Assembly (NCBI GenBank): GCA_027014605.1
Contig: JALWDJ010000030.1
Coordinates: forward strand, 62,001-126,000
From: Campylobacteraceae bacterium
Lineage (GTDB): Bacteria > Campylobacterota > Campylobacteria > Campylobacterales > Sulfurovaceae
DNA: 64,000 nt
Direction: 5' to 3'
A program made the translations under genes and the position numbers. Shown here piece after piece: positions 12,794-62,036 of this stretch. How positions within the stretch are numbered: the stretch's first letter is position 1; every line of letters starts with the position of its first letter. The notes beneath the pieces are model-generated. The model saw only the letters and a list, made by a program, of their open reading frames with translations. It ran no database searches and was not told where the DNA came from.

Positions 12794-13162
12794 TTAGTTT
12801 ATACTATCTCTAATTGCTTTCATTAATTTTTTCTCAGTTATAGGTTTTGTAATAAAACTACTAGCACCTTTTAAGAGTGACTCTTTTTTTCTTGTATCAT
12901 TAGAAGATATTGCAATAATAGGAACTTTTTTAATATTTTTAGTTTTATAAATATCTAGAAATTCTAATCCATTGATTTTTGGCATTTCAATATCTAAAAG
13001 AATAAATTGAATATCATCTTCTTGTTCTATAATATCTAGTCCATCTCTACTATCAACTGACTCTATTGTCTTAACTCTATATAATTTCTTTCTTAAAATT
13101 TCAATTAATAACTTTCTATTAATAAAATCATCATCAATAACTAAAATTTTATATTCAATCAC
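12794..13162 (-). CDS. Single-domain response regulator (CheY-like receiver)
   Basis: 122-aa stand-alone receiver domain without output. Acidic pocket DDD near residues 9-11, phosphoacceptor Asp in FILLDIEMPKINGLEF near residue 59, conserved Ser in IAISSND, and Lys in FITKPITEKKL near 106. Its start overlaps the stop of the hybrid kinase by one base, so it is the natural terminal or shuttle receiver of that phosphorelay. The output target is not visible; it may act by protein-protein contact. Confidence 0.9.
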   Translation of the reverse strand: MIEYKILVIDDDFINRKLLIEILRKKLYRVKTIESVDSRDGLDIIEQEDDIQFILLDIEMPKINGLEFLDIYKTKNIKKVPIIAISSNDTRKKESLLKGASSFITKPITEKKLMKAIRDSIN

Positions 13163-16100
13163 TAAACACCTCTATATTTATTTATAATCTCTTTTAATTT
13201 ATCTATCTTCATAACTCCAACTAAAACCTCTTTAATCTCTTCTTTATTATAATTATCATCTTCTAATTCTCTAAGAGTTAATAGAATTATATTCATATTT
13301 TTATGCTGTTTTTTTATTATATCACTATCTGCTAACTCTTTATCTATCAATAAAATATCATATCTTTTATCTTGAATTTTCTTTTGAAGTGTAGATATAT
13401 TATTTATCATCTCTATTTTATATCCTAAATTAGATAATACCTTTGAGAGTATCTGTCCCTCTAATGGATTTTTTTTAGCAATTAAGATTATTTTATCTTC
13501 TTTTATCTCTTCATCAAATAGAAGATTAATAACTCCATTGTTATTATTAAAGGAGTCTTCTTCTAATATATTATCTCTTCTATTTTGAGTCGGAGAGACT
13601 TCTGTTATATCTACTTGAGTAAGAAATTTTTTTAGTATAAATAGAAGTTCATTATTATCAATAGGTTTTGCTAGATAGTCATCTAATCCATTATTCATAA
13701 ATCTCTCTCTATCTCCTTTTAGAGCATTTGCTGTTAAAGCTACTATTGGAGTATGTTTTAAATTTTCTTCTTTTTCATAATTTAATATCTCATTAGTAGC
13801 TTCAATACCATCCATAACAGGCATCTGTATGTCCATTAAGATGAGGTCATATTTGTTGTTTTTAACTTTATCAAATGCTTCTAAACCATTATTAGCCAAT
13901 TCAACTTCTATACCATATTTAATTAATATCTGTTTAATTAGTTTTTGATTTATAATATTATCTTCAGCTACTAATATTCTTCCGTTAAATTGAATTATAT
14001 TAAATGGTGTAGCAATACTATCTTGAATATTATCTTTTTTAATTTTATTATCCTCTATAATATTATTTTCATCGATATCTATAGCGTTTATGGCATTTAC
14101 TATTTTAGTAGGAGTAACTGGTTTATATATAACTCTATTACTATTTATATTTAGATTTTCTATTTTTTTACGATTTTTAAAACTTGTAACTATTGTAACT
14201 TTATTTTTGTTTAATTTATTTATAGTATGAATGAGTGTATTATCCATACTATCAATATCTAACCATATATTATGAATATTGGGATTACTATTTAATCTTT
14301 TAAGTTCACCACTAGTAGAAAATATTCTATTATCTATTCCATAATATTCAAAATATTTATTGATATATATATCTAATTGTTTTGGAATATTAGAGTTTTG
14401 ATATCTAGCTATAGAGATATTACTGTCTATATATTTACTACTAAGCTCTGTACTATCTAAAACCTCTTCAAGTTCAAGGGTAAAATAGAACTTTGTACCT
14501 TTCTCTTTTTCACTTTCCAACTTAAGTTCACTTCCCATGAGTTCTAAAAATTTTTTAGATATAGTTAAACCTAAACCAGTCCCCCCATATTTTCTAGTAA
14601 TGGAGACATCAGCTTGAGTAAATGCAGAAAATACATTTAACTGTTGCTCTTTTGTCATACCAATACCATTGTCTTGAATACTAAATAGAATTTTTACTCT
14701 ACTATCTATCTCTTCTAGTTTAGTTATTTCAATATTTATCATGCCACCATAATCTGTAAATTTAATGGCATTACTTAAAAGATTTATTAAAATCTCTTTT
14801 ATTTTAACACTATCTCCGATTAATTTTTTATCTAAACTAGGGTCTAAATAGAAGTTAAAATCTATATCTTTTTCAGATGCTTTGACACCATAAGTCTCTA
14901 TTGCATTTTCAAATTCAATAATTGGGTCAAAAACTATAGTCTCTAATTCAATTTTATTACTCTCTATTTTAGATAAGTCTAAAATATTATTAATAATACT
15001 AAGCAGATTTTCTGAACTCTTTTCTATTATTCCTATAAATTCTAACTGTTCACTATTTAAATCAGTACTCTTAAGAAGCTCTGTAAATCCAACTATTCCA
15101 TTTAGAGGGGTTCTTATCTCATGAGACATATTTGCTAGAAATAGTGATTTTGATTCATTTGCCTCAAGTGCTTGAATTTTATCCTGTTTTGCATTTTCTA
15201 TTAGAAGCTCTAAAAAGTGATATGCCTCATTTATTCCATGATTACTATTTAGATTAATACTTTTTATTTTATTAATATTTGGGGTATTAAATCTATCATC
15301 TGTATCTAACTCTTTAACTGTTTTATTTAAAATATCTTCTAAACTTTTAATATTATTAATTATCTCTCTACTTGTTTTAAATCCTAAAAAAGTTAATATG
15401 AGCGAGACTATCCAAAAAAATCCAGCTATTATTAACATAATAATATTTTGATATATAAAATTATTATTTATATTAGATAGTTTACTCTCTATACTATCTT
15501 CTATTTTAGAGAGATATTTTATCTTTTGTGAATGAAGATTAGACCATATGTCAATATCTATATTAAATTTACCATTAGTTAAATTAGATTGTAATTTAGA
15601 GTATATATTTGCTATTTTAGCTTCAATATTTTTATACTCTTGACTGTTTAAAATAGATAATACTCTATCTCTTAAAATATCATCACTAATAGATGCAGGG
15701 TTAAAGATATTTGACTTAATATTTACACTATTGTAAAAGATAATATCTTTTCTTGATAGAGGTACTTTTTTTGTTAAAAAGTAGTTAATAAAATCTCTTT
15801 CTAATGAGCAGTTTTCTCTACTTATATATAGTTGTGAAAGAGGTGTTATTAGAGAACTTATCTGATTATCAAATTTATATTTATTTATTAATAACTGATA
15901 CTTTAGTATTGGTTGGGTTAGGATAGCTATATATTGTTTATAAAAAATTGTTCTAAAATCTATTTTTCTACTATCTACAGCTCTTCTAATTTTTTCAATC
16001 TGTTTAAGATGGTAAAATATATTTTGATTATCATAGTTTACTCTTGAATTATAAAGTGCAGAAAAGTATGAGTTATGATTTATAGAAATCATAGATTTTT

Positions 16101-16380
16101 TAGCACTCTCTATTGCACTATTGGTTATTATCCTCTGTCTTAATAGTCTCTCTTTAATTTTAAGATTATAATTTGAACCAATTAAACGAGCTGTTAAACC
16201 TCTCTCTTTTTCTATTTCATTTAATACTCTATTTAAATATCTATTATTATGTATAATCCCTTTTAATTCATTTGCCTTATAGTATTTATTATAAGATGTA
16301 TATAAAAAGAAACTAGTTGCAATAAAAAGTAGTGTTATAGGTAACATACTTATTAGTTTTAATCTATTTTTCATCTGCAT
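13162..16380 (-). CDS. Hybrid sensor histidine kinase with NIT-type sensor and three receiver-like domains
   Basis: 1072-aa inner-membrane kinase. TM1 is at about 10-29 and TM2 about 313-335, bracketing a ~280-residue periplasmic domain. That domain opens with [21 protein letters not shown], the EKERG signature of the NIT (nitrate- and nitrite-sensing) family. Then come a coiled linker, HisKA with [10 protein letters not shown] (His near 418), and HATPase with [17 protein letters not shown] and [10 protein letters not shown]. Three receiver-like domains follow: a degenerate one (about 670-780), an intact one with [13 protein letters not shown] (Asp near 847), and a degenerate C-terminal one (about 960-1065). 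It sits in a cluster with Hpt, PAS and CheY-like genes. Nitrate sensing is inferred from the domain family and the nar genes 13 kb away. Confidence 0.88.
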
Positions 16381-21909: not shown

Positions 21910-22632
21910 GTGTCCACTATATATTATAATTCACCAACTCTAGGAAGATTATTACAAAAAATTAATAATACTATAAAAGTAGGAGAGCGTGTTAAAGTAG
22001 TAATAAATGGTATAAATTTTTATTATGGTTATTTTGTTCATCATGGATTTGAAGTGGAACAGTCAATAGAAAAAAAGGGAGAAATCACTGTAGATATTAT
22101 AAAAAAAAGAGATGTTAAATCAGTTAAAGATAGAAATTACTCTTGGTTAATAAAACTACCTCGTACAGGAAAAGATGGTAAGCGAATTTTTGTTTATAAA
22201 TTAAGAACAATGGAGCCATACTCTGAATATATACAAGATTTCGTTATTAAGAAGAATGGTTTAAATAGTGATGGGACAATTAGAAATGATTTTAGGATTA
22301 CAAAAACAGGTAAATTTTTACGAAGATATTGGTTAGATGAACTACCTATGATTATTAATTTTTTAAAGGGTGATTTAAAATTAATAGGTTTTAGACCTTT
22401 AAGTGATACCATGTTAAATCAATATCCAGAGTGGTTTGTTCGCATACGAAATAAGTATAAACCAGGATTAATACCCCCATATTATATAGATAAACCTAAA
22501 AATTTTGATGAGTTAATAAAATCAGAGCTTAGATATATTGAAAAATATAGAAAAAATCATATTTTAACAGATATAGACTATTTTTGTAAATTTATTAAAG
22601 CAATTTTCTTGAAGGGAGTGAGAAGTTCATAA
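21910..22632 (+). CDS. Bacterial sugar transferase family protein without the usual N-terminal membrane helix
   Basis: Family members transfer a sugar phosphate to undecaprenyl phosphate to start a polysaccharide repeat unit. The C-terminal two thirds match: VYKLRTM near residue 95, RITKTGKFLRRYWLDELP with the catalytic Asp-Glu pair at 143-144, FLKGDLKLIGFRPLS near 150-165, and KPGLIPP. The N-terminal ~75 residues are polar and lack the hydrophobic re-entrant helix present in PglC and WbaP. The start is GTG with a GGAGA site upstream. It is the first gene of the operon, 2 nt before the flippase. It could be a genuine initiating transferase with peripheral attachment or a repurposed relative. 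Confidence 0.75.
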   Translation: MSTIYYNSPTLGRLLQKINNTIKVGERVKVVINGINFYYGYFVHHGFEVEQSIEKKGEITVDIIKKRDVKSVKDRNYSWLIKLPRTGKDGKRIFVYKLRTMEPYSEYIQDFVIKKNGLNSDGTIRNDFRITKTGKFLRRYWLDELPMIINFLKGDLKLIGFRPLSDTMLNQYPEWFVRIRNKYKPGLIPPYYIDKPKNFDELIKSELRYIEKYRKNHILTDIDYFCKFIKAIFLKGVRSS

Positions 22633-22633
22633 A

Positions 22634-23944
22634 ATGAGTTTAATAAAAAAGGGTCTTAGTGATAGTAAATATTATCTTATTGCAAATATTGGAAACAAAC
22701 TTTTAGCATTTCTTATTATACCTATACTTACTAAGAGCGTATCAGTTGAGGAGTTTGCTACTTATGACCTTTTTTTAATTATAAGTTCTTTTTTAAATAT
22801 ATTTGTAATTTTAGGTATAGATTCTGGTATAGGGATACTACTAACAGAGTCAAAAAATAGTCATCAACAGTTATCTTTTTTATATGTCTCTACTATTATA
22901 ATAAGTTTTACTGTTATATCTATTATCAGTATAATATTGAATTTAATGTTTTTCTATAGAGATGAACTATTTTTATTAAATAGAGAGATTTGGTTATATA
23001 TCTCTTTTTATGTACTCTTTTATATGATAAGTTATCACACATTCTCATTTCTAAGATGGAGGGAGAAGGCAAAAGAGGCTTCATTTATTTCACTATTTTC
23101 TTATATATTGGGTATGGTATTAGGAGTATTCTCTTTATATTTTAGTGGTGGAATAGAGTCCTATATTCAAGGTTTAGTGATAGGGGTATTTTTAGGTTCT
23201 TTGGTATCCCTTTTTATAGCAAGAGATTATATTTTAGATTTTAAAATTATAGATAATGCAAAAGAGCTATTAAAAGAGCTTTTTATATTATCTCTACCAT
23301 ATGTTCCTAACTCTCTAGGAAATAGTCTGATGCAATTTATAGATAGGTTTGTAATACTTATGCTTTTTGGAAAATATGAGTTGGGACTCTATGCTGTTAT
23401 TATGAAACTTGCAAAAATACCAAAAATAGTAATAGATACACTCTCAGGTGGTTTTTTCCCAATTATGTTTAAAAACTATAAAAGTATAAAAGGTAGAAAG
23501 TTAATTAGAGATTTTTTTCATATTTACTTAATATCTATACCTATCTTCTTTATAATAGTATATTTCATTGATGACTCAATAGTAAAGATATTTGCAGGTA
23601 GTAAATATATAGATGTAGCTTATATGTTACCTATGGCATTAGTTTCAATACTATTTATGGGAGGTACTAAACTTAATGGATTGGGATACTCAATAAAGAG
23701 AAAAACACATCATATTTTATATATTACTTTTCTATCTATAGTTTTAAACTATCTATTTAGTCTATTATTTGGGTATTTAATAGGATTGGAAGGTATTATA
23801 GTTGGAACTTTAATAGCTGGAATAGTTAAAATTTATCTCTATACACTCTATTCAGAGAAATTGTATAGTTTTGGATATAGTTTTAGATTAATTATATCTA
23901 TTAGTCTATTAAGTCTTATATTGGTGCTATCATGCTTATACTAA
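22634..23944 (+). CDS. Polysaccharide flippase (Wzx/MATE-like)
   Basis: 436-aa protein with about twelve membrane helices. It opens KKGLSDSKYYLIANIGNKLLAFLIIPILTKSVSVEEFATYDLF, the typical start of oligosaccharide flippases (GxxxYxxanx...iPxLTrxLspeEfGxY). It would move undecaprenyl-linked repeat units to the periplasmic face. Its last 13 nt overlap the next gene. Its presence together with a Wzc-like protein and a polymerase-like protein suggests a Wzx/Wzy-dependent pathway, distinct from the ABC permease at 10.6 kb. Confidence 0.88.
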   Translation: MSLIKKGLSDSKYYLIANIGNKLLAFLIIPILTKSVSVEEFATYDLFLIISSFLNIFVILGIDSGIGILLTESKNSHQQLSFLYVSTIIISFTVISIISIILNLMFFYRDELFLLNREIWLYISFYVLFYMISYHTFSFLRWREKAKEASFISLFSYILGMVLGVFSLYFSGGIESYIQGLVIGVFLGSLVSLFIARDYILDFKIIDNAKELLKELFILSLPYVPNSLGNSLMQFIDRFVILMLFGKYELGLYAVIMKLAKIPKIVIDTLSGGFFPIMFKNYKSIKGRKLIRDFFHIYLISIPIFFIIVYFIDDSIVKIFAGSKYIDVAYMLPMALVSILFMGGTKLNGLGYSIKRKTHHILYITFLSIVLNYLFSLLFGYLIGLEGIIVGTLIAGIVKIYLYTLYSEKLYSFGYSFRLIISISLLSLILVLSCLY

Positions 23945-25272
23945 TAAATAGAGTATATCTACTTGCAACAATATTTCTATTTTTAATATTTTCTTTAAAA
24001 ATTACGACAGAATTTGTATATGTAAATATTTTTGCTTTTATGAGTTTTATTGTCTATTTTTTAATGTTAAAGCTAAATACATCAATGCCTATAAAGTCAT
24101 ATAGTAATAGAGTAGCAGTAGTTATTATATATACTGCACTTGCCATATTTATGGAGGATTTTATATCCTATTTCTATAATGATAACTATTTTATGTTTAG
24201 TGATACAGATGCAATGTTGTACCATACAAAAGCTGTTAGAATGGTTCAAATGCCCTCTTTAGGAATTGCGATAGATGATTATCTAAAAGATATGGGTACA
24301 GATGATTTAGGTATGGTTTTAGTTCTATATCCACTATATAAACTTGTAGAGTCTAATATTATTTTGAACTTTTTTTATCTATTTGTAAATCTTATTACTG
24401 TATATAGCATATTTAAGATTGCTAATAATTTTATGAGTCAAAAGTATGCTTTTTTATCATCAGTAGCTTATTCACTCTCATCTTTTGTTTTATTTTTTCA
24501 CTCTACGGGACTTAAAGAGAGTTTTATGGTTATGTTAACAATTTTATCATTTGACTTCTATTATAGATTTGTAAATAGTAGAAATATTCTTCATCTAATA
24601 TTGGCTTTAATTTTTATGTCCACTATTATGCTATTTCGAACTGTTATTCCTGTTTTTATTGTGGCATCTGTTGGTTTAGCTGTTCTTATATCAGGAGAAA
24701 CAAAAAAGAGTATAAAAATTATTGCCTTAGTAGTATTTTTAGTTATTTTTGCTGTGGCTGGTAACTCTATTCTTGCAGAGATAGATGATTATACAGCAGG
24801 GGGAATAGATGGGCTTATATATGCAAGAACAATACAAGGGAGTATTATTGGTGGACTTCCATTTACCTATGCTGTAAATGTACTTTCACAAGTTATAGGA
24901 CCAATTCCTACAATAATATCTTATAAGAAAGTTCTAACAATGTTTTACACTTCAGGGCTTATATATAGAGTGCTTATCTCTTTTCCATTCTGGTTGGGGA
25001 TATTCTATATATATAAACAGAGAGTCTATAATTTATATCCACTTACTTTTTTTGTAATCTTTGAGATGTGTGGACTTATATTTTTAATAGATGGTCTTGA
25101 GTTGAGAAAAGCTATGCCACACATACCAATGGTATATATTGTAGCTTTTTGGTTTTTAGATAAGTATGATAGAGGTCTAATTGATATGAAGAGAAAGAAA
25201 GAGTTTCAAATATTCTTCTATATCTCTATGGTGATACTAGTTATACTTATTAGTTATTGGAATTTTAGATAA
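23932..25272 (+). CDS. Polytopic membrane protein, probable polysaccharide polymerase (Wzy-like)
   Basis: 446 aa with about eleven hydrophobic segments and no soluble domain, placed directly after the flippase with a 13-nt overlap. Position and topology are those of a Wzy polymerase. A loop near residue 90-125 reads FSDTDAMLYHTKAVRMVQ, with acidic residues reminiscent of GT-C enzymes, so a membrane glycosyltransferase is possible. Wzy proteins share little sequence, and I see no specific family motif; the call rests mainly on context. Confidence 0.55.
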   Translation: MLILINRVYLLATIFLFLIFSLKITTEFVYVNIFAFMSFIVYFLMLKLNTSMPIKSYSNRVAVVIIYTALAIFMEDFISYFYNDNYFMFSDTDAMLYHTKAVRMVQMPSLGIAIDDYLKDMGTDDLGMVLVLYPLYKLVESNIILNFFYLFVNLITVYSIFKIANNFMSQKYAFLSSVAYSLSSFVLFFHSTGLKESFMVMLTILSFDFYYRFVNSRNILHLILALIFMSTIMLFRTVIPVFIVASVGLAVLISGETKKSIKIIALVVFLVIFAVAGNSILAEIDDYTAGGIDGLIYARTIQGSIIGGLPFTYAVNVLSQVIGPIPTIISYKKVLTMFYTSGLIYRVLISFPFWLGIFYIYKQRVYNLYPLTFFVIFEMCGLIFLIDGLELRKAMPHIPMVYIVAFWFLDKYDRGLIDMKRKKEFQIFFYISMVILVILISYWNFR

Positions 25273-25290
25273 AGGAGATAATAGATAGAG

Positions 25291-26205
25291 ATGCGTGTAC
25301 TATTTATAAGTAGTGGAAATAGTAAGAGTGGGATAAGTCCCATTATAAAAAATCAAGGTGAGTCTTTAAAAAAAGAGGGAATATCAATAAACTATTTTAC
25401 AATTAAAGGTAGAGGTATTAAGGGATATTTAAAATCTATTCCTAAAGTAAGAGCATATCTAAAAGAGAAGCAATATGATATAGTACATGCACACTATTGG
25501 CTATCTGCTATTGTTACATCTTTAGCAGGAGCTAAATCCATAGTTGTATCATTAATGGGAGATGATGTTAAGGCAAAAAGGTGGTTTAGATGGATTATAT
25601 ATATTTTTCATCATATATCATGGTCTCGTACAATTGTAAAATCAAAAGATATGTATCTTTCATTAGGAATTAAAGATGTATATATTGTTCCAAATGGTGT
25701 AGATTTAGATAGATTTAGGTCAATCTCAAAAGATATAGCACTTAAAGAGGTGGGTTGGAGTGATAAAAAGAGACATATTCTATTTACCTCAAATCCAGAT
25801 AGAGTAGAGAAGAACTTTACTCTTGCAAAAAAAGCTTTTGAGTATATAAACGATAATAATTTAGTACTACACTATTTAAAAAATATACCAAATGATAGAG
25901 TTCCTTATTACTATAATGCTTCTGATGTAATTATATTAACAAGTTTTTGGGAAGGTAGCCCAAATGCTATTAAAGAGGCTATGGCGTGTAATGTGCCTAT
26001 AGTATCTACTCCTGTAGGTGATGTAGATGAGGTTCTATCAAATACTAAAGGGTGTTATATCTCCACTTTTGACTATAGAGATTTTGCTTCAGATATTAAA
26101 AGAGCTTTAGAGTTTGGCAAAAAAACAGATGGGAGAGAGGCTATAAAGCATCTCAAATCAGAGATAATCGCAAAAAAAATTATAGATATATATAAAGGAA
26201 TATAA
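25291..26205 (+). CDS. Family 4 glycosyltransferase
   Basis: Retaining GT-B glycosyltransferase of 304 aa, predicted cytoplasmic and adding a sugar to the lipid-linked repeat unit. N-terminal FISSGNSKSGISPIIKNQGESL, then YDIVHAHYWLSA, VPNGVDLDRFR and the donor-site motif SFWEGSPNAIKEAMACNVPIVSTPVGDVDEVL near residue 220. It is shorter than typical GT4 (about 370) because loops are trimmed, not because of truncation: both Rossmann halves are present. The stop overlaps the next ATG (TAATG). Confidence 0.88.
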   Translation: MRVLFISSGNSKSGISPIIKNQGESLKKEGISINYFTIKGRGIKGYLKSIPKVRAYLKEKQYDIVHAHYWLSAIVTSLAGAKSIVVSLMGDDVKAKRWFRWIIYIFHHISWSRTIVKSKDMYLSLGIKDVYIVPNGVDLDRFRSISKDIALKEVGWSDKKRHILFTSNPDRVEKNFTLAKKAFEYINDNNLVLHYLKNIPNDRVPYYYNASDVIILTSFWEGSPNAIKEAMACNVPIVSTPVGDVDEVLSNTKGCYISTFDYRDFASDIKRALEFGKKTDGREAIKHLKSEIIAKKIIDIYKGI

Positions 26206-28043
26206 TGTGTGGAATTGTAGGTAATATAGCTTTAGATAATAGAGTTATAGATGAGTATACTATTTTGAAGATGATGAAAAAAATAGAGCATAGAGGTCCT
26301 GATGATAGTGGGTTATTTATAGAAGATAGCGTAGGTTTAGGTTTTGTCCGTTTAAGTATTATTGATATATCTACAGCTGGACATCAACCTATGATAAGTA
26401 GTAATAACCGTTTTATACTTATCTTTAATGGAGAGGTATATAACTATATAGAGTTAAGAGAGAAGCTTAAGAAAAGAGGATATCACTTTAGGAGTGATAG
26501 TGATACAGAGGTTGTATTAAATGCCTATCAAGAGTGGGGTGAAGAGTGTTTAGATAGATTTAATGGTATGTGGGCATTTGTTATATATGATAGAGATAGG
26601 AAAGAGATTTTTGGTGCAAGAGATAGGTTTGGTATTAAGCCATTCTACTACTATAGAGATAGTAATAATTTTCTATTTGCATCAGAGATAAAAGCTCTAA
26701 GAGAGGTGATTGATAGTAGAAATCTATCTATTAATGAACAGGCTATATTTGATTATCTTCTATTTAATAGAACAGATTATGGAGATAGAACATTTTATAG
26801 TGAGATTTATAAAGTTCCACATGGACACTACTTTAAGATAAACTCTAAAAAAGAGTTTAAACTACATAAATGGTATGATTTAAGTAGTAACTGTAATAGA
26901 GGTAATATAGATAGTAAAGAGTACTATGAACTCTTAACCTCATCTATAAAACTTAGAATGAGAAGTGATGTACCTGTTGGGGTATGTCTTAGTGGAGGAT
27001 TAGACTCATCTACTATTATATCTACTATATCAAAAAGACTTAATATTAAAGATATAAATAGCTTCTCTGCTATATATGGAAAGGGGGAAAAGGGTGATGA
27101 GAGTAAATTTATAGATGAGATGAGTCTATTTTTAAAAAATATGCATTATACTACACCAACAGCTAAATCTCTATTTAATGATATAAAAGATATGGTTGAG
27201 TTACTTGATGAGCCTGTACCAACTACAAGTATATATGCACAATATAAGGTAATGGAGTTGGCAAAAAAGTATGTAACTGTTACACTAGATGGGCAGGGAG
27301 CAGATGAGCAGTTAGCAGGATATCCATACTTTTATGGCTTCTATTTTAAAGAGCTTCTTACAACTCTATCACTAAGAACCCTATTTATAGAGATGCTATA
27401 CTATATAAAACTACATAAATCTCTCTATGCGATAAAGACTCTTATATTTTTTCTATTACCAAATAGATTAAAGCTTAATCTTAAAGGGAAAAATATCTCA
27501 TATATACAGAGTGATTTTTTTAAAAATCATAATGGGAAAAATACTCTTACAGATGAGCTATATAGTGCTAAATCTCTAAGAGAGTCTCTTATTAGACATT
27601 TTGAATATAAGCTTGAACATCTATTAAAGTGGGAGGATTTAAACTCTATGAGATTTTCAATAGAGTCTCGTGTTCCATTCTTAGACTATAGAGTTGTAGA
27701 GCAGACACTCTCATTAACCAATGATAATTACATTAGAAAAGGAGTAACAAAATATATATTAAGAGAGAGTGTGAAATCGATTGTTCCTGAAAAGATTAGA
27801 ACAAGGTATGATAAGGTTGGTTTCTCAACACCAGAAGCAGACTGGTTTAGAGAGAGTTTTTTTAGAGATATGATATTTAATATTTTAGAAAATCCAGCTA
27901 AAAATTTTAAAAAGTATATAGATACCAATAAGGCAAAATCACTATATGCTCAACACTTAAACCATAAAGGAGACTACTCAAGAGATATTTGGAAATGGAT
28001 AAATCTCAATTTATGGTTAGAGAATAATAAGGATATTTTATGA
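26205..28043 (+). CDS. asnB: Asparagine synthase (glutamine-hydrolysing) family protein
   Basis: 612-aa glutamine-dependent amidotransferase. Cys2 in MCGIVGNIAL is the glutaminase nucleophile; RGPDD, FNGEVYNY and the ATP-pyrophosphatase loop VCLSGGLDSSTI near residue 263 are intact, as are SIESRVPFLDYRVVE and DGQGADEQLAGY. In polysaccharide operons such enzymes often amidate uronic acid or similar carboxyl groups rather than making free asparagine. Given the neighbouring ATP-grasp gene, amide decoration of the polysaccharide is a reasonable inference, but a housekeeping AsnB cannot be excluded. Confidence 0.88.
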   Translation: MCGIVGNIALDNRVIDEYTILKMMKKIEHRGPDDSGLFIEDSVGLGFVRLSIIDISTAGHQPMISSNNRFILIFNGEVYNYIELREKLKKRGYHFRSDSDTEVVLNAYQEWGEECLDRFNGMWAFVIYDRDRKEIFGARDRFGIKPFYYYRDSNNFLFASEIKALREVIDSRNLSINEQAIFDYLLFNRTDYGDRTFYSEIYKVPHGHYFKINSKKEFKLHKWYDLSSNCNRGNIDSKEYYELLTSSIKLRMRSDVPVGVCLSGGLDSSTIISTISKRLNIKDINSFSAIYGKGEKGDESKFIDEMSLFLKNMHYTTPTAKSLFNDIKDMVELLDEPVPTTSIYAQYKVMELAKKYVTVTLDGQGADEQLAGYPYFYGFYFKELLTTLSLRTLFIEMLYYIKLHKSLYAIKTLIFFLLPNRLKLNLKGKNISYIQSDFFKNHNGKNTLTDELYSAKSLRESLIRHFEYKLEHLLKWEDLNSMRFSIESRVPFLDYRVVEQTLSLTNDNYIRKGVTKYILRESVKSIVPEKIRTRYDKVGFSTPEADWFRESFFRDMIFNILENPAKNFKKYIDTNKAKSLYAQHLNHKGDYSRDIWKWINLNLWLENNKDIL

Positions 28044-29179
28044 AAAAGGTAGGCGTAGTTGTATTGGGTGGACATATTCAGGGTCTAAATATAATTAGAG
28101 TATATGGTAAAAATGGTATTCCAACTATTCTATTAGATAGTACTCGATTTAATCTTGGAAAACATTCAAAATATTGTAATAAATTCTATAGATGTAAAAA
28201 TGAAGGTATATTAAAAAAGCTTTTAGAGTTTGGAGAAAGAGGAGAGTATAGAGGGTGGTTAATAGTACCAACAAATGATTTTCAGGTTAAGATATTAAGT
28301 AAAAATAGAGATAAATTAAATAGATATTTTGTTGTCTCTTCGGATAGATGGTCTGTAATTAAAAAGTGTTATAATAAGATAGAAACCTATAAGATAGCAC
28401 AATTAATATCAGTTCCATTTCCAGATACTATTTTCCCCAAAGATATAAATGAGTTAATTGGTAATAATAGTATTAAATATCCTTGTATTATAAAACCTGC
28501 TGTTATGCATATATTTTATAGTAAATTTAAAAAAAAGGTATTTCTATGTAGAGATAAAAAGGAGCTTATATCAAATTATATATTAGCAACAAAGGTAATT
28601 CCAAAATCAGAAATAATGGTTCAAGATATAATCCCAGGGAGTAGTTACAATGAATACTCTAGTTACTTTTTCTATAGAGATGGGAAAGTGTTTAACTATA
28701 TGGCTATTAGAAGAAAGAGGCAACACCCTGCAGACTTTGGAAATGCAGCAACATTTATAGAGAGTGTGGAGATAGAAGAGCTAAGATTACAGAGTGAAAA
28801 ACTCTTAAAGGCAATAGGTTATAGTGGTATCTGTGAAGTCGAGTTTAAATATGATAGTAGAGATAAAAAGTATAAACTTTTAGAGATTAATCCACGAACT
28901 TGGAAATCTCATATTATTGCTGAAAAAGCAGGAGTTCCTTTTTTAATGTCACTCTATAACAAGATGATTTATAACAGAGATTTAATCACTACAACATATC
29001 AACAGAGTTATGCAAAACATATATTACTTGATACCATTATGATTATTCTAAATAGAGAGTATAGAGCAGATAGATTTTATAATAGAGAGAAGACTAAATA
29101 TTATGTATGGGATAGAGATGATATTTTACCTGCACTGTTCGAGTTAATATATTTCCCAATTAATATATTAAAAAGGTAA
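28040..29179 (+). CDS. ATP-grasp superfamily protein (carboxylate-amine ligase type)
   Basis: 379-aa predicted ligase. N-terminal VVVLGGHIQGLNIIRVYGKNGIPTILLD is a pre-ATP-grasp Rossmann-like domain. CIIKPAV near residue 153, VQDIIPGSS near 202 and EVEFKYDSRDKKYKLLEINPRTW near 275-295 are the ATP-grasp lysine, lid and metal-binding motifs. Such proteins join a carboxylate to an amine using ATP and could add an amino acid to a sugar in this pathway. It overlaps the asparagine-synthase-like gene by 4 nt. The substrate is unknown. Confidence 0.85.
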   Translation: MKKVGVVVLGGHIQGLNIIRVYGKNGIPTILLDSTRFNLGKHSKYCNKFYRCKNEGILKKLLEFGERGEYRGWLIVPTNDFQVKILSKNRDKLNRYFVVSSDRWSVIKKCYNKIETYKIAQLISVPFPDTIFPKDINELIGNNSIKYPCIIKPAVMHIFYSKFKKKVFLCRDKKELISNYILATKVIPKSEIMVQDIIPGSSYNEYSSYFFYRDGKVFNYMAIRRKRQHPADFGNAATFIESVEIEELRLQSEKLLKAIGYSGICEVEFKYDSRDKKYKLLEINPRTWKSHIIAEKAGVPFLMSLYNKMIYNRDLITTTYQQSYAKHILLDTIMIILNREYRADRFYNREKTKYYVWDRDDILPALFELIYFPINILKR

Positions 29180-29183
29180 AGAT

Positions 29184-29783
29184 ATGGGTAAGATAATTAT
29201 ACGCTTTTTTAGAAATACACTATTTAATATAAATATAGTATATCCTTTTGTACGACTCTATATATCTCTTATAGAGCCACAGATAAAAAGGGCTTATGGT
29301 ATTTATTCTATAAATAGAATTAAAAATCGTGGTGTTGGGTGTGTAATATATGGAAGAGTTTATATACAAAATCCAGACAATTTAATTTTAGGAGATTATG
29401 TTCATATTGGGAGTGGAGCATTTTTTCATGCTCTTGGAGGTATTAAAATTGGAGATAATACATATATAAGTCGTAATCTACTTATATATTCAGAAAATCA
29501 TAATATGAACTCCTCTTCATTTATACCATATGATAATAGTTATATATATAAACCAGTGACAATTGGTAACTCTGTATGGATAGGTATGAATGTGACTATT
29601 GCTCCAGGGGTAACTATTGGAGATGGAGCAATTATCGGTATGGGTACAACAGTATCAGAGGATGTTCCAGCAGGAGCTATTGTTGTTGGGGCTAAACAGA
29701 GAATAGTCAAATATAGAGATATGAATATTTTTAGGGATTTACTCAAAAGAGAGAGATATTTAGGAAAATATTTTCCATATTAG
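29184..29783 (+). CDS. Left-handed beta-helix acyltransferase
   Basis: 199-aa acyltransferase of the maltose/xenobiotic acetyltransferase group. Hexapeptide repeats run from about residue 68 to 172 (LILGDYVHIGSGAFF, IKIGDNTYISRN, VTIGNSVWIGMNVTIAPGVTIGDGAIIGMGTTVSEDVPAGAIVVG). The likely catalytic His is in SENHNM near residue 108. It probably O-acetylates a sugar of the repeat unit, using acetyl-CoA. Tightly spaced, 4 nt after the ATP-grasp gene. Confidence 0.88.
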   Translation: MGKIIIRFFRNTLFNINIVYPFVRLYISLIEPQIKRAYGIYSINRIKNRGVGCVIYGRVYIQNPDNLILGDYVHIGSGAFFHALGGIKIGDNTYISRNLLIYSENHNMNSSSFIPYDNSYIYKPVTIGNSVWIGMNVTIAPGVTIGDGAIIGMGTTVSEDVPAGAIVVGAKQRIVKYRDMNIFRDLLKRERYLGKYFPY

Positions 29784-29804
29784 CATTTAAAAGGAGAAAA
29801 TAGA

Positions 29805-30743
29805 GTGATTTCTTTTATTGTAATAGGTATGAATGAGGCAAAAACTGTAGGCTTAACTATAAAAAGTATACTTTTATACACCTCATATAATAAGATTGAT
29901 AATTATGAGATAATCTATGTGGACTCTCGTTCTACCGATAATAGTATAGATATTGTTAAAGAGTTTAAAGAGGTTAAGATTTTTGAAATCACTGGAGAGA
30001 TAAATGCAGCTATTGCTAGGAATATAGGGGCAATTGAAGCAAAAGGGGATATATTTATTTTTTTAGATGCTGATATGGAAATAGATAGAGAGTTTCATAG
30101 TGTAGCTTTTAATAATAATAATAGACTAATCTATCCATTTATATCGGGACAGTTAAAAAATATCTTTTATAATGAGAATTGGTTAAAAGTAGAGGAGACT
30201 CTCCATTTTCCAAATCTAAAAAAAGATACATTCTATCCTGAAACAGGAGGTTTTTTTATAATAAAAAAAGATTTATGGTTTTTGGTAGATGGAATGAGAA
30301 CGAAATATAGACGCTCACAAGATATTGATTTTGGACTTAGATTGGCAAATATAGGGGTACTTCTTCTTAGAAAAAAAGAGTTATTTGTTATACATCACAC
30401 TGTAAGCTATCTTGATAAGAGAAGAGTATGGAAGATGTTATTTGATGGTTCTCTACTCTATCAAACAAGTGTAATGATACGAGACCATATATTTAATCGA
30501 TATATGTATAGAAGATTATTTAGAACAAGTTATACACTTATAATTCTCTCTATATCTCTTTTAGGTTCTATTTTCTCTCCCTATGCTCTATTAATACACC
30601 CCACTATTATAGGAGCAAAAGTTTTAATAATTAAAAAAGGAAAACTATTTGTATATTACTATTTAAGAGATATATTCTCATTTTTAGGTTTATTTTTATT
30701 TTTTCCAAAAGAGAAAAAGCTTATTTATAAATTAATAAAATAA
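29805..30743 (+). CDS. Family 2 glycosyltransferase
   Basis: 312-aa inverting GT-A transferase, starting at GTG with an AAAGGAG site 9 nt upstream. Motifs are FIVIGMNEAKTVG, IYVDSRSTDNSIDI, and the DXD in FIFLDADMEID near residue 88. The C-terminal ~60 residues carry two hydrophobic segments, so it is likely attached to the inner membrane. It belongs to the operon's set of two soluble transferases, giving a small repeat unit unless membrane proteins also transfer sugars. Confidence 0.87.
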   Translation: MISFIVIGMNEAKTVGLTIKSILLYTSYNKIDNYEIIYVDSRSTDNSIDIVKEFKEVKIFEITGEINAAIARNIGAIEAKGDIFIFLDADMEIDREFHSVAFNNNNRLIYPFISGQLKNIFYNENWLKVEETLHFPNLKKDTFYPETGGFFIIKKDLWFLVDGMRTKYRRSQDIDFGLRLANIGVLLLRKKELFVIHHTVSYLDKRRVWKMLFDGSLLYQTSVMIRDHIFNRYMYRRLFRTSYTLIILSISLLGSIFSPYALLIHPTIIGAKVLIIKKGKLFVYYYLRDIFSFLGLFLFFPKEKKLIYKLIK

Positions 30744-30764
30744 ATTATATAAGGAGATATTAAT

Positions 30765-31634
30765 ATGAGAATAGTAATTCTAACCCACTCAAAAGAGAGA
30801 CATTTCTATCTATGTAATCAGATAATAGAGAATACAGGCTCTGTTGTTGGAGTTATTACAGGAGCAAAGGTTATTAATAGAAGTAGATATGAGAAGTTTA
30901 AAAATAGGCTAAAAAATTTTAGGTTCTATATAAAAAATAGATTAATAAATAGTCTATTTATAAAATATGGGAAGAGTTTATTAAAAGAGAAAGAGTTAGC
31001 TGAAGAGAAGTTTTTTGGAGGCTCAAAAAAACACTTTTATAAAAATCATAAAGAGTTATTAATTGGAAGTGTAACTCCTAAATATAGGTCAATTAATGAT
31101 GAATATTATATCTCTCTAATAAGGGAGAAGAAACCAGATATTATTGTAGTTATGGGGACATGTTTAATAGGTAGAGAGATAATCTCCTCTGCAAAATTTG
31201 TAATAAATATGCACACAGGACTATCTCCATATTATAGAGGGGGAAATACAAATCTATGGCCATTTATAGAGAATGATTTTGGATATTTTGGTGTAACTAT
31301 ACATCTTATGTCGCTAGGAATTGACTCTGGTAGGATTATCTTTACTAAGCGTCCTAAAATTGAGAAGATTGATAACTATGGAACTATTAATAGTAAATCT
31401 ATTGTTTTAGGTGTTAAGTTAATGGTTAAGGCTATTGAGTATATTGAAGATAATAGATTAAGCTCTATAGAGCAGTGGGAGGAAGGAAAACTATTTTTTG
31501 ATAGAGATTGGAATAGTTATCTTGCCTATAGATATTTAAAAAATAGAGATAGATTTCTATCGACCTATTGTGAACTTCAAAAAGAGAATAGATTACCAAA
31601 ACTAAAATTAATTGAGAATGGAGCTGTATTATGA
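30765..31634 (+). CDS. Formyltransferase family protein (sugar N-formyltransferase-like)
   Basis: 289-aa protein with the formyl transferase core. FVINMHTGLSPYYRGGNTNLWPF near residue 145 provides the Asn and His of the catalytic N-H-D triad, and IHLMSLGIDSGRIIF near 177 provides the Asp. Family members move a formyl group from 10-formyl-tetrahydrofolate to an amine. Here the amine is likely on a sugar, because the housekeeping Fmt has an extra C-terminal domain absent here and the gene sits among glycan genes. It is followed, with a 4-nt overlap, by a deacetylase that could expose such an amine. Confidence 0.83.
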   Translation: MRIVILTHSKERHFYLCNQIIENTGSVVGVITGAKVINRSRYEKFKNRLKNFRFYIKNRLINSLFIKYGKSLLKEKELAEEKFFGGSKKHFYKNHKELLIGSVTPKYRSINDEYYISLIREKKPDIIVVMGTCLIGREIISSAKFVINMHTGLSPYYRGGNTNLWPFIENDFGYFGVTIHLMSLGIDSGRIIFTKRPKIEKIDNYGTINSKSIVLGVKLMVKAIEYIEDNRLSSIEQWEEGKLFFDRDWNSYLAYRYLKNRDRFLSTYCELQKENRLPKLKLIENGAVL

Positions 31635-32554
31635 TTGAGTTATTAAATAGGGTTCAACCATACTTCTCTTCACATATTTTATTATATCATTCTACTTTCA
31701 GTAGAGTTCCAGATAATCTCAAAAAGGGGTTACATAATGTTACTCCTGAGAATATATATAAACAATTATCATGGCTAAAAAGATATTTTGATATTGTAGA
31801 GCTTGATGAGCTTTTTACCCAAAATGATATATTGGGTAAAGTAGCTATTACATTTGATGATGCATATCTATCTGTTTTTAAAGAAGCTATTCCTGTATTA
31901 GCGACGCTAGGTGTTCCATCTACAATATTTATAAATGGAGCTTCATTAGAAGGAAAAGTTTTTTGGAGAGATAAGATTAGATTTCTAATAAATAACTCAT
32001 TAGTAGAAGATTTTCTAGAAAAAAATATTTCTCTATCCCGTGCATATAATTTAACAGCTCAGAATTTCTACAAAATGAGTAAAAGCCAAAGAGTTAATAG
32101 TGAAATAATTGATGCTTTACTCGATAATTATCTAAAAAAGAGTGGAGTATCTTTAGAGAATTTTTGTGTAGATAATATAAAATATATTAAAAATAATTCT
32201 TTAGTTTTATATGGAAACCATACATATAATCACTATCTATTATCTTCTCTAAATAGAGAGCAACAGGAAGAGGAGATAGTTAAAAATCATCAATTATTAA
32301 AAAGATGTGATGTTAGATTATCTAAGGTATTTTCTATCCCTTTTGGTGGAGATAGAGATTTTAATTCAATAACTATTGAACTTCTAAAGAAATATAACTA
32401 TATAGGTTTTTTATATTCTAAAAATGGTATTAATACAAAAAATGGCAAAAATATAGATAAAAACTTAATATCAAAAGATAGATATATGGTAAGTTCTGAT
32501 TTTAAATCATTTCAAAAACAGATTTTTAAATTGGGAATAAAAGGTTTAATATGA
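31631..32554 (+). CDS. Polysaccharide deacetylase (NodB-like, CE4)
   Basis: 307-aa metal-dependent N-deacetylase. Motif 1 is VAITFDDAYLS near residue 74 and motif 2 is YGNHTYNHYLLSSL near 196, supplying the Asp and two His metal ligands. No signal peptide is evident, so it may act on a cytoplasmic sugar precursor, unlike periplasmic PgaB-type enzymes. Neighbouring formyltransferase and this deacetylase together could produce an N-formyl amino sugar. It overlaps the next gene by 4 nt. Confidence 0.83.
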   Translation: MIELLNRVQPYFSSHILLYHSTFSRVPDNLKKGLHNVTPENIYKQLSWLKRYFDIVELDELFTQNDILGKVAITFDDAYLSVFKEAIPVLATLGVPSTIFINGASLEGKVFWRDKIRFLINNSLVEDFLEKNISLSRAYNLTAQNFYKMSKSQRVNSEIIDALLDNYLKKSGVSLENFCVDNIKYIKNNSLVLYGNHTYNHYLLSSLNREQQEEEIVKNHQLLKRCDVRLSKVFSIPFGGDRDFNSITIELLKKYNYIGFLYSKNGINTKNGKNIDKNLISKDRYMVSSDFKSFQKQIFKLGIKGLI

Positions 32555-33612
32555 AAAAGATACTATTTGATGTTGGACACCCTGCACAGGTTCATAATTT
32601 TAAAAATATCTATTGGGATTTAGAAAAAAAGGGGTGGGAAGGGTTATTTGTTACTAAAGATAAAGAGATTTGTGTTGAGTTATTAGAGAGATATAATCTT
32701 CCATTTATAGTTTTAAGTAGAAATAGAAAAGGATTATTAAAAAAGATACTCTTTTTAGTTAAAGATATTGTTAAATTTTATTCTATTTTAAATCAATTTA
32801 AACCAGATATTGTCTTAAATAGAATGTCAATACATGCAACATTAGTATCTAAAATTTTAAGAGTTCGACAAATATCTATGGCAGATACTGAAAATTCTCT
32901 AAATCTTAGCTTTTTAACAGATACAATACTTACAGCCACCTCTTTTGAAAAGAGTTTTGGAGATAAACATCTAAGATATAGAGGAAATATAGAGCTTTTT
33001 TATCTTCACCCAAATAGATTTAGAGCTGATGATAGTATATATGAACTACTTAATATAAAAAAAGATAAGAGATATGCAATTATTAGATTTGTATCTTGGG
33101 ATGCTCATCATGATATAGGTCAAAAGGGTTTCTTATATCAACAGAAGATTGAATTAGTAAAAAAACTATCTGAAAATATAGAGGTTTTTATCTCTTCAGA
33201 GGTGGAGCTTCCATTTGAATTAGAAAAATATCGAATAACAATTCCTATAGATAGAATACATGATGCTCTATATTTTGCATCATTATATGTTGGTGAAGGG
33301 GCTACTATGGCATCAGAATCTGCTATGTTGGGTACACCTGCAATATATGTAAACTCACTAAATGATGCAGGAATATTTAAGGAGTTAGAAGAGGAGGGAC
33401 TCTTCTATATTATTACAGATGGAGTAGAGGCTACCTTTAAGGCAGTAGATATTATTGATAATAGCTCTAAAGAAGATTATATAGAAAAGAGAGATAATTA
33501 TATTAAAAAAAAGATAGATGTAACAGCTTTTTTAGTTTGGTTTATTGAGAACTACCCAAAAAGTGTAAAGATTATAAGAGAAAATCCAGATTATCAATTA
33601 AGGTTTCAATAA
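32551..33612 (+). CDS. DUF354 family protein (predicted GT-B glycosyltransferase)
   Basis: 353 aa. The start KKILFDVGHPAQVHNFKNIYWDLEKKGW is the signature of DUF354, a family with a GT-B-like fold found in polysaccharide loci of bacteria and archaea. SLYVGEGATMASESAMLGTPAIYVN near residue 250 corresponds to the donor-binding region of UDP-GlcNAc 2-epimerase/GT-B relatives. No biochemical function is established to my knowledge. Overlaps both neighbours by 1-4 nt. Confidence 0.8.
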   Translation: MKKILFDVGHPAQVHNFKNIYWDLEKKGWEGLFVTKDKEICVELLERYNLPFIVLSRNRKGLLKKILFLVKDIVKFYSILNQFKPDIVLNRMSIHATLVSKILRVRQISMADTENSLNLSFLTDTILTATSFEKSFGDKHLRYRGNIELFYLHPNRFRADDSIYELLNIKKDKRYAIIRFVSWDAHHDIGQKGFLYQQKIELVKKLSENIEVFISSEVELPFELEKYRITIPIDRIHDALYFASLYVGEGATMASESAMLGTPAIYVNSLNDAGIFKELEEEGLFYIITDGVEATFKAVDIIDNSSKEDYIEKRDNYIKKKIDVTAFLVWFIENYPKSVKIIRENPDYQLRFQ

Positions 33613-34376
33613 TGAGAGATTTTACACATAAAATATATAGAGACTTTTTAATTTCTTTAAAGAAGGAAAATTTTCAATTTATAACTGTTGAAGAGTATTT
33701 TAGTTTAAAATATGATAAAAATAGAGCATTTATTATAATTCGTCATGATGTTGATAGAAGACCCAAGAGTTCATTGAAAATGGCAAAGATAGAAAATAGT
33801 ATGGGTATAAAGGCTACATACTATTTTAGAACCATTTCAAGGACTCTAAAACCTGATATTATTAGAGAGATAGCAACTTTAGGACATGAGATAGGTTATC
33901 ATTATGAGTCTTTAGCAGAGACTAATGGGAATTATGAAAAGGCTATTAGAGATTTTGCTAGAAATCTATCTAAATTAAGAGAGATATATCCTATAAAAAG
34001 TATCTCTATGCATGGTAGACCAACATCAAAGTGGGATAGTCGTCTGCTATGGAAACGCTATAATTATAGAGATTATGGAATTTTATCTGAACCATATCTT
34101 GATATAGATTTTAAAAAGGTTTTATATATTACAGATGCAGGGAGAGAGTGGAATAATGATTTAATCAATAGAAGAGATAGAGTAAATAGTAGTTTTAATT
34201 TTGGATTTAAACATACAGAGGAGATTATCTTAAATATTGATAGAGGAGTTCTACCTAATAAGATAATGGTAAATATCCACCCTGAACACTGGTCAGAAAA
34301 TAATATAGAGTGGTATAGAGTTCTACTTATAAGAAAAATCAAGAATTTCGTAAAAAGACAACTCCTAAATTTGTAA
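33612..34376 (+). CDS. Second polysaccharide deacetylase-like protein
   Basis: 254 aa with IIIRHDVDRRPKSSLKMAKIE near residue 43, ATYYFR near 70, LGHEIGYHYESL near 95 and SISMHGRP near 131. The HDVD motif and GYH motif define a divergent group of the NodB-fold family that recurs in glycan operons. It is the last gene of the operon and overlaps the convergent Wzc-like gene by 38 nt at the 3' ends. Whether it is catalytic is unproven; the metal-binding Asp and His residues are present. Confidence 0.78.
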   Translation: MRDFTHKIYRDFLISLKKENFQFITVEEYFSLKYDKNRAFIIIRHDVDRRPKSSLKMAKIENSMGIKATYYFRTISRTLKPDIIREIATLGHEIGYHYESLAETNGNYEKAIRDFARNLSKLREIYPIKSISMHGRPTSKWDSRLLWKRYNYRDYGILSEPYLDIDFKKVLYITDAGREWNNDLINRRDRVNSSFNFGFKHTEEIILNIDRGVLPNKIMVNIHPEHWSENNIEWYRVLLIRKIKNFVKRQLLNL

Positions 34377-36549
34377 TACTATTCTGCTCTTTTATATAAT
34401 TGAGGTTAGCTATAGATGCTCTTTCACTATAGCCCTCTTGAAAGATAATTAAATTAATATCACTAAGTTTCATAATCTTTTTAATATCAGTTACAACTCC
34501 AAATGGTATTGTATTTATTATTATATAATCATAATTTCTTGTTTGAAGTTCCTTAATTAATATAGGTAATTTTTGGGATATAAACTGTTTTGATATTTTA
34601 TCTATACTTTTATCTATTGAGATAATATCTAAATTTTCATATTTAGTTGGATATATTGTCTCATCAATATTATTATTATTTACTAGTATAGAGTGTAATA
34701 TATTATTTTTATCTAAATCGATAATAACTGTTTTATATTCAACTTCTGCAAATGAGACAGCTAAATTTAAGGTTACTAACTCTCTATCTTTAATATTAAT
34801 AATTGAACTTAATAATATTATTTTAGGTTTATTATCTAATAGTTGTAGATTTGTACGAAGCAGATTGTAGTTTTCAAAGGAGTTATTTTTTTTATTTTTT
34901 AGGGTAGTAACTGCACCGTATATAGGAATATCTGTTCTAATATCTATATCTTTTATAGTTAGTATTTTACTATTATAGAGATAATATATAATGATCCAAA
35001 GTAGTCCTATGAGTATTCCAAGAAAAATAGATGAGCCTAAAATCATTCCACTTTTGCTTTTTGTAGGGGTAAAATCACTATAAGCTTTTTCTATAATTTT
35101 ATATTTAGACATATTTGCAACTTTTAAAATTTTATTTTCTGCTTGTTTTTCTAGTAAAAAATTATATAGTTTAGAGCTAACTTCATAATCTCTTTGTATA
35201 TTAATAATTTTTCTCTCTTTAATTGGAAGGATTTTTAGTTTTCTTTCATAGGATTTTTTTCTATTTTCAAGATTTCTTTCCTTTTCAAGTATATTTTTTT
35301 GAAGTTTTTTAATATTTGAGATAATTTTATTTTTAATAATCATAATTTGACTATTAATCTCTTTAACCATTGGATGTTTAGGAGTAAACTCCATAAGAAG
35401 TTTATCTCTTTTTAGTTGTGCATCATCAAGTAGTTGCGTAAGTTTTAAAGTTGCTTTATCATCAAGTTCTATAAGAGATGGTGCTATAGAGTTAAAAGTT
35501 TGATTTTTTGTTATGAAATCTACAAGATTATTAATAATATTAACTTTGAGTTGATTTTCAGATATTAAAAAATCAATACGACTTAACTTTTTAATAAATG
35601 TAGATGCTTGTAGTGAAGGTTGAATTGCTCTATTTGATATGCGATAGTTTTCTAATCTCTTCTCTGATTTTTTTAACTCTTTTTTCATTCGTTGAAGTTC
35701 ATTTTTAATAAAACTTAAAACCATACTACTCTGTTCACGATTTTCAGATAAACTATCATCAATAAAGCTTTTTGTTAAAGCTTGAACATAATTTATGGCT
35801 CGTATTGGAACTCTATCTTTATAATATATTTTAATATAGGGTACATTTTCATTAGTTTGAATAATATCTAAATTATTACTTATGATATTATTATATATAT
35901 ATCTATTTTCACCATTTAGTACTATATCAATTGGTTTAGTAAAATTAAAAAGTTTGACAACTCTAAGTGTAAAAAATTCATTTTCTATCTTTTCATTATA
36001 TCTAAAAGGCTGTTTCCCCTTTATTTTTAGTAGAGGCTTATCAAAAAGCGTATTCATTAATTTATTTTTTAATGAGTGAACAAAGTCAATATAATATCCA
36101 TCTCTATTTGGAGTAATTCTTAATTTTGCACCAAGAATTTTTTTATCTTTAATCTCTATATCTTTTATGTCTATAGGTATTTTTTTATAAATTTCTATAC
36201 TTTTATAGTGGATATTTTTATAGTACTGTACTTGAAAATTTTTTTTAGTTAAATTTAATGCTTTATTATTTATATAAAATGTTTTTAAAAAGGATATATC
36301 TTCATCAATATTTGTTTTTAGTTTCAAATTTGGGTCTAAAATTAAATTTGTACTGATATTATCTCCATCTTGTTCAACTTTTACAATAGAGTATGCACTA
36401 TAAAAAGGTTTTTGATTATGAACTATAAATAGTGCAATAGAGATAGATACTATAGTTGTAATAATAATTTTCCATTTATGCTTCTTTATAATTGAAAAAA
36501 TCTCTTTAATATGAAACTCATCTCCATTATCTATCTTATCTAATTTCAC
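34339..36549 (-). CDS. Wzc-like chain-length protein with a degenerate tyrosine-kinase domain
   Basis: 736-aa inner-membrane co-polymerase. It has a Wzz domain with TM1 near residues 28-46, a long coiled-coil periplasmic region (about 250-430, including PKHPMVKEINSQ), TM2 near 503-523 and a C-terminal cytoplasmic ATPase-like domain. That domain keeps the fold (LLRTNLQLL, LNLAVSFAEVEYKTVIIDLDKN) but Walker A is SSIINIKDRELVTLNLA instead of a GxGKST loop. The Walker B DTPP region is INTIPF, and there is no terminal tyrosine cluster. I infer an inactive pseudokinase that still sets chain length. It is transcribed towards the polysaccharide operon. Confidence 0.82.
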   Translation of the reverse strand: MKLDKIDNGDEFHIKEIFSIIKKHKWKIIITTIVSISIALFIVHNQKPFYSAYSIVKVEQDGDNISTNLILDPNLKLKTNIDEDISFLKTFYINNKALNLTKKNFQVQYYKNIHYKSIEIYKKIPIDIKDIEIKDKKILGAKLRITPNRDGYYIDFVHSLKNKLMNTLFDKPLLKIKGKQPFRYNEKIENEFFTLRVVKLFNFTKPIDIVLNGENRYIYNNIISNNLDIIQTNENVPYIKIYYKDRVPIRAINYVQALTKSFIDDSLSENREQSSMVLSFIKNELQRMKKELKKSEKRLENYRISNRAIQPSLQASTFIKKLSRIDFLISENQLKVNIINNLVDFITKNQTFNSIAPSLIELDDKATLKLTQLLDDAQLKRDKLLMEFTPKHPMVKEINSQIMIIKNKIISNIKKLQKNILEKERNLENRKKSYERKLKILPIKERKIINIQRDYEVSSKLYNFLLEKQAENKILKVANMSKYKIIEKAYSDFTPTKSKSGMILGSSIFLGILIGLLWIIIYYLYNSKILTIKDIDIRTDIPIYGAVTTLKNKKNNSFENYNLLRTNLQLLDNKPKIILLSSIINIKDRELVTLNLAVSFAEVEYKTVIIDLDKNNILHSILVNNNNIDETIYPTKYENLDIISIDKSIDKISKQFISQKLPILIKELQTRNYDYIIINTIPFGVVTDIKKIMKLSDINLIIFQEGYSERASIANLNYIKEQNSITNLGVVFLRNS

Positions 36550-36684
36550 AAATACTCCTGATTAATTATTAATATTAATAAATATATTATATTATATTAT
36601 ATTTTGTTGTAAAATAGGATTAAAATATATCTATTTTATATAAATTTTTTAATAAATATCAATTTATCTTTAATCTTTATAGTC

Positions 36685-61932: not shown

Positions 61933-62036
61933 GCCTCTTTTAGACCTATGCAATAGCATTGGTGGACAACGGGTCAGGATGGGGACATAGCAGCCCACCC
62001 ACCTTTGCTGTGTGCCGTAGGTATCTGGAAGAGGTT
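61933..62036 (+). ncRNA. ffs: Signal recognition particle RNA (4.5S-type)
   Basis: RNA scaffold that binds Ffh for co-translational targeting. The conserved domain IV tip is visible: GGGTCAGG, then a three-base stem ATG/CAT closing a GGGA tetraloop, then AGCAGCCC; this matches the universal GGUCAGG...AGCAGCC internal loop. The ends pair as a long rod: CCTCTTTTAGACCTA near 61934 with TAGGTATCTGGAAGAGG near 62018. Length about 100 nt fits the small bacterial type. Ends are approximate. The open frame passing through this RNA is not a real N-terminal extension of the next gene. Confidence 0.9.

Follow-up and report, generated by a model that had tools for sequence, protein, structure and literature searches.

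A Wzc-type polysaccharide co-polymerase with a degenerate BY-kinase domain in a Sulfurovum-like genome, and the series of losses among its relatives

Polysaccharide co-polymerases of the PCP-2 family are thought to act through the phosphorylation-driven cycling of an octamer. For Wzc, the available account describes the unphosphorylated octamer as the stable state, the tail of one protomer entering the active site of its neighbour and phosphorylation leading to disassembly (PMC11986026). Co-polymerases with kinase-like domains of another kind have also been reported. PssP2 of Rhizobium leguminosarum, which is linked to polymer chain length, is described as a fused co-polymerase whose kinase-like domain has no Walker A, A' or B motif and no tyrosine cluster (PMC4182512). 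EcpK/EpsV of Myxococcus xanthus and HfsB/HfsA of Caulobacter combine a BY-kinase fold devoid of Walker motifs and tyrosine tail with a proposed contact-based action; the same article proposes contact-driven assembly for such pseudokinases and cites fused examples, the PCP-2/pseudokinase variants SMc01795, BCETI_6000729, Mlr8439 and VV1_2305 of Cuthbertson et al. (PMC12004946). As related in these sources, fused pseudokinase co-polymerases are already described in print. We found no published report among the open-access papers searched linking Sulfurovum with Wzc, or BY-kinases with Epsilonproteobacteria.

The gene considered here lies within a window (the whole stretch of DNA analysed, 64,000 nucleotides) on the minus strand, which a previous sequence-only reading had left unstated, and encodes a 736-residue product from a GTG start at 36549. 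Its features, and the cluster that it faces, are as follows.

34339..36549, minus strand: Wzc-type polysaccharide co-polymerase (736 aa, GTG start) carrying a BY-pseudokinase domain
36555..36559, minus strand: Shine-Dalgarno-like AGGAG, 5 bases upstream of the GTG, as read from the sequence
36343..36522, minus strand: Wzz domain, residues 10-69 (PF02706; 37.2 bits, Pfam cut-off 25.5)
34987..35217, minus strand: GNVR domain, residues 445-521 (PF13807; 41.7 bits, Pfam cut-off 27.7)
34342..34932, minus strand: BY-pseudokinase domain, residues 540-736, from the TIGR01007 score and the AlphaFold2 model against 3la6
34777..34797, minus strand: degenerate Walker A, residues 585-591, NIKDREL (canonical relatives xGEGK(S/T)T; Lys replaced by Arg589)
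34702..34728, minus strand: Walker A' region, residues 608-616, VIIDLDKNN (D613 kept, RKP lost)
34498..34524, minus strand: Walker B region, residues 676-684, IIINTIPFG (Asp replaced by Asn679)
21910..34376, plus strand: Wzx/Wzy-type polysaccharide cluster, convergent with the co-polymerase gene

With Wzz and GNVR both scoring above their cut-offs, the Wzc-like identity and normal Wzz part claimed from the sequence alone are upheld. Moreover, a PDB sequence search with the protein returned E. coli Wzc and BY-kinase domains, and its C-terminal kinase part reached 66.8 bits against TIGR01007, under the cut-off of 108. In the AlphaFold2 model, helices 25-44 and 500-526, whose placement in the membrane is predicted from model and homology, flank a large periplasmic domain, and a kinase fold (residues 526-736) is fused C-terminally, which is the layout of PCP-2a proteins; co-polymerase and pseudokinase thus share a single reading frame, unlike the two separate proteins of EcpK/EpsV. 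The claim that length is kept stands only in part: the protein counts 736 aa against about 775-790 aa in its nearest kinase-type relatives, from which it also differs by an in-frame deletion after Walker A' and by having no tail.

The neighbouring cluster encodes a sugar-1-P transferase, a flippase, a multi-pass membrane protein (23932-25272, a candidate Wzy), glycosyltransferases, AsnB-like and ATP-grasp proteins, an acetyltransferase, a formyltransferase-like protein and deacetylases. The final gene of the cluster and the co-polymerase gene share 38 bases at the 3' end of the latter. From this position, a role of the co-polymerase in the length or export of the adjoining polymer is predicted. 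Elsewhere in the window, 61959-63824 encodes a 621 aa protein in which a LSGKQRMLTQKM-like unit recurs, apparently as several tandem sensor-type repeats, and 12794-16380 a large hybrid histidine kinase adjoining a single-domain response regulator, as named from sequence only.

Motif columns were read from a kinase-domain alignment in which 41 tyrosine-tailed homologues served as reference. The Walker A residues E/G/K/T of these homologues are K587/D588/R589/L591 in the window protein, the Walker B Asp, found in 41/41 of them, is N679, and zero residues follow the last strand where the tyrosine tail should be, so that the announced losses of the GKS/T loop, of the Walker B aspartate (INTIPF) and of the tyrosine cluster are all confirmed. 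Among the hallmarks of active BY-kinases (Walker A GxGK(S/T), Walker A' Asp, Walker B Asp and tyrosine cluster), the second Asp of Walker A' (D613) is the one retained. EX2RX2R, the oligomerisation motif, is E-N-R in the window protein, the first Arg being replaced by N562, and full E-R-R in 39/41 tyrosine-tailed homologues. Overall, 25 of the 51 positions conserved in at least 85% of these homologues are kept. With neither P-loop Lys nor Walker B Asp nor tyrosine tail, the domain, judged by its residues, cannot be a canonical autokinase, and it would neither bind ATP nor sustain a phosphorylation cycle.

Regarding the fold, the model, built on 52 sequences, has a mean pLDDT of 81.3 and a pTM of 0.55. 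Its residues 526-736 match the Wzc kinase domain 3la6 with a Z of 24.5 (rmsd 2.4 Å over 208 residues) and CapAB 3bfv with a Z of 23.6, and Wzc entries rank first when the whole chain is compared. The modelling thus supports retention of the BY-kinase fold despite the motif losses, as the sequence-only reading had proposed, and the protein combines, as PssP2-like proteins do, a fused kinase fold with the loss of Walker A, Walker B and the Tyr tail.

A structural pseudokinase is the best reading of the domain, supported by the three motif losses, the modelled fold, an ortholog with the same losses and purifying selection. The most likely mechanism, to which we give, largely by analogy, a probability of about 60%, is that of a phosphorylation-independent co-polymerase whose pseudokinase domain would act as an assembly scaffold. 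The gene product is an inner-membrane co-polymerase of Wzc build (PCP-2a), probably serving the adjoining Wzx/Wzy-type cluster, and, because its domain cannot be a canonical autokinase, it very probably works without a phospho-tyrosine cycle. By analogy with EcpK/HfsB, the pseudokinase domain may form a cytoplasmic platform that holds protomers together under the membrane, and contacts, instead of phosphorylation, may govern assembly and disassembly. Indeed, a dead protein without a tail can use neither tail insertion nor the phosphorylation step, so that other contacts would have to set stability.

The syntenic ortholog in genome G006, truncated by a contig start and flanked by deacetylase and DUF354 genes as in the window, is 81% identical over residues 48-736 of the window protein and shows identical losses in Walker A, in Walker B and at the tail. 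For this pair, dN/dS is 0.14 overall, 0.09 in the periplasmic part and 0.28 in the kinase domain (95% bootstrap 0.18-0.46). The domain of a second dead pair (L048/L019) has a value of 0.26, compared with 0.04, 0.13, 0.06 and 0.11 in four tyrosine-tailed pairs. The pseudokinase domain is under purifying selection, yet weaker than in its kinase-type relatives. Values of 0.24 and 0.13 were obtained for two tail-less pairs whose motifs are mostly intact; relaxation therefore accompanies tail loss too and not dead motifs alone. The two dead pairs have kinase-to-periplasmic divergence ratios of 1.69 and 2.05, compared with a median of 0.72 (maximum 1.15) in 39 tyrosine-tailed pairs and a median of 0.95 in 49 tail-less pairs, dead ones included, the pairs in both sets sharing rows and being non-independent.

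The homologue search covered 60 genomes, 34 of them from the genus (own genome included), and gave 115 matches; 89 rows entered a quick tree with some long rows and SH-aLRT values as its only support, and 25 further frames from loci fetched later were read apart from it. The clade that holds the window protein has eight rows (SH-aLRT 100), and 16 kinase-type rows group next to it (support 93). The P-loop is gone in the window protein, L102, L048, L019 and L028, reads GEGSNI in L018 and is intact (GEGKST) in L079, and all seven domain-bearing rows lack the tail and carry Asn in Walker B, as does the contig-edge fragment L116. The eighth member, L033 (G013), stops just past the second membrane helix; the kinase domain, being absent there, is dispensable in this protein. 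A convergent sugar transferase gene lies 7 bases beyond the stop, and no kinase remnant was found downstream in three frames.

Among the 87 domain-bearing tree rows, 41 are tyrosine-tailed (at least 3 Tyr), 43 have fewer than 3 and 3, cut or gapped, were set aside. None of the 41 tyrosine-tailed rows shows a motif loss, each having kept K(S/T) and the Walker B Asp, and 11/43 rows with fewer than 3 tail tyrosines have lost the Walker A Lys-Ser/Thr, the Walker B Asp or both. All 11 motif-loss rows of the tree being tail-less and the tailed rows keeping both motifs, the tyrosine tail was apparently lost before the other motifs. The series of relatives further suggests that the tail went first in the lineage, then the Walker B Asp and then the P-loop. 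The fewest changes on the tree are 7 for the tail, 2 for Walker B and 4 for the P-loop, counts that do not separate gain from loss. A tyrosine-rich end together with visible motif loss occurs in 0/25 of the later frames, many of which are contig-cut or domain-less.

Two other groups emerged from this survey. A 15-row Wzc-like clade (L056, L057, L059, L061-L065, L067, L068, L070, L073, L074, L077 and L105) has intact Walker A and B and a 20-34 residue C-terminal tail free of tyrosine, and its members may be ATPases lacking the usual phosphorylation substrate. Kinase-less co-polymerases of about 525-531 aa (L127, L128, L129, L130 and L138) were also seen, four of them adjoining a Wza-like gene and L138 being directly followed by a sugar transferase gene. 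No kinase gene was seen beside the 509-531 aa co-polymerases (L127-L131 and L138) in the stretches fetched, as judged only from reading frames and, in two of them, from a look for the GK(S/T)T motif.

The main rival to the scaffold reading is that the protein functions through its periplasmic and membrane parts and that the dead domain is disappearing, kept only so that its folding stays harmless. A domain dN/dS 2 to 6 times that of the four kinase-type pairs, the clean loss of the whole domain in the sister lineage of L033 and the retention of less than half of the kinase-type conserved positions fit such a vestige, and the domain's job may indeed be minor, since its evolution outpaces that of the domain in kinase-type relatives and one relative has discarded it completely; the N562 substitution, which breaks EX2RX2R, also weighs against a scaffold. 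However, the domain dN/dS is far under 1 throughout its bootstrap interval, two species have an open frame, the model shows an undisturbed fold and the other seven clade rows have kept the domain. We consider a vestige unlikely, though the most serious of the alternatives.

The scaffold reading has also to be weighed against the rest of the host genome (G000, a Sulfurovum-like Campylobacterota; 1.98 Mb in 97 contigs, a fragmentation that also counts against it, and 99.99% complete as listed). This genome encodes five Wzc-like proteins, none of which (0/5) has a tyrosine tail: the window protein (C30); C21, likewise dead (REEDKDL, Asn in Walker B); C20 (QREAKTN) and C91 (PKQGKSV), both with the Walker B Asp; and C43 (L047), whose NREGKTV provides a GKT P-loop and which keeps the Walker B Asp and E-R-R. 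The window protein could therefore be the dead partner in a mixed complex with a protein such as C43 that has a working ATP site. This is improbable: the C43 paralogue is also tail-less, adjoins its own Wza gene and is distant on the tree, and the authors of the EcpK article argue, in the account available, that such pseudokinases are independent of active BY-kinases (PMC12004946).

A stand-alone Wzd/CapB-type kinase, a check proposed by the sequence-only reading, was not found in the 97-contig assembly with two BY-kinase profiles; the other TIGR01007 matches are four Wzc-like proteins, MinD (L006) and two Mrp-type proteins (L007, L008), and two further TIGR03018 matches are weak. Scanning the genome for a tyrosine tail with a TAY-GGN pattern gave 8 matches versus 9 in a reversed control, and no kinase-like reading frame of at least 80 aa lies at the match on C56. 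Regarding phosphatases, CpsB has no match in the genome and its only LMW-PTP is, as named from its sequence, of the arsenate-reductase type and adjoins an ArsR-like regulator. Wzb-like high-scoring LMW-PTPs occur in only 6/34 genus genomes and are missing from genomes with tyrosine-tailed kinases too, and a missing phosphatase was hence rejected as evidence. Four Poly_export (Wza-type) matches were found in the genome and 0 inside the window. One of the four, a Wza-like gene on C41 (L122:7470-8282), has no co-polymerase adjoining it in the stretch read, and its product could partner the window protein or the other Wza-less co-polymerases of this genome.

That the domain is a sensor binding nucleotide in some other way, as D613 and the retained Rossmann-like core might suggest, is very improbable, the P-loop glycines, Lys and Ser/Thr being all substituted in both species. 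A sequence error hiding a Walker A motif, which the sequence-only reading had named among its possible refutations, or a decayed gene is ruled out by the 81% identical syntenic ortholog with every one of the losses, by the open frame with a good ribosome site, in-frame changes only and the dN/dS of 0.14, nothing except the odd motifs speaking for it.

Beyond the phosphorylation-independent scaffold proposed for the window protein, the Sulfurovum-like lineage may have given up phospho-tyrosine control of its co-polymerases genome-wide, the genus keeping every stage of the loss (full kinase, tail-less enzyme, dead fold and no domain) and the tail going first; we advance this tentatively, with slightly more doubt than confidence. 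If true, the octamer cycle thought essential for PCP-2 proteins would be replaceable, repeatedly, by phosphorylation-free control. What is new here is a stepwise loss series inside one genus, together with a genome where the search for co-polymerases with a tyrosine tail found none. Moreover, these close relatives range from live and tail-less kinases to dead folds and proteins devoid of the domain, a ready basis for asking which part is needed for polymer length and export.

Compared with known systems, the window protein shares its domain order and fold with E. coli Wzc (PCP-2a; 7nhr, 3la6), which in contrast has Walker A and B motifs and a tyrosine tail, phosphorylation driving octamer disassembly according to the account available (PMC11986026). 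It resembles EcpK and HfsB, as they are described, by a BY-kinase fold in which Walker motifs and tyrosine tail are absent, but the pseudokinase is a separate protein there and fused to the co-polymerase here (PMC12004946). SMc01795, BCETI_6000729, Mlr8439 and VV1_2305, likened by description, have the same one-chain layout and belong to other bacterial groups (PMC12004946). PssP2, also compared by description, is similarly a fused co-polymerase whose kinase-like domain is reportedly devoid of the Walker A, A' and B motifs and of the tyrosine cluster; it differs in being an alphaproteobacterial protein of 586 aa, with a periplasmic domain far shorter than that of PssP (PMC4182512).
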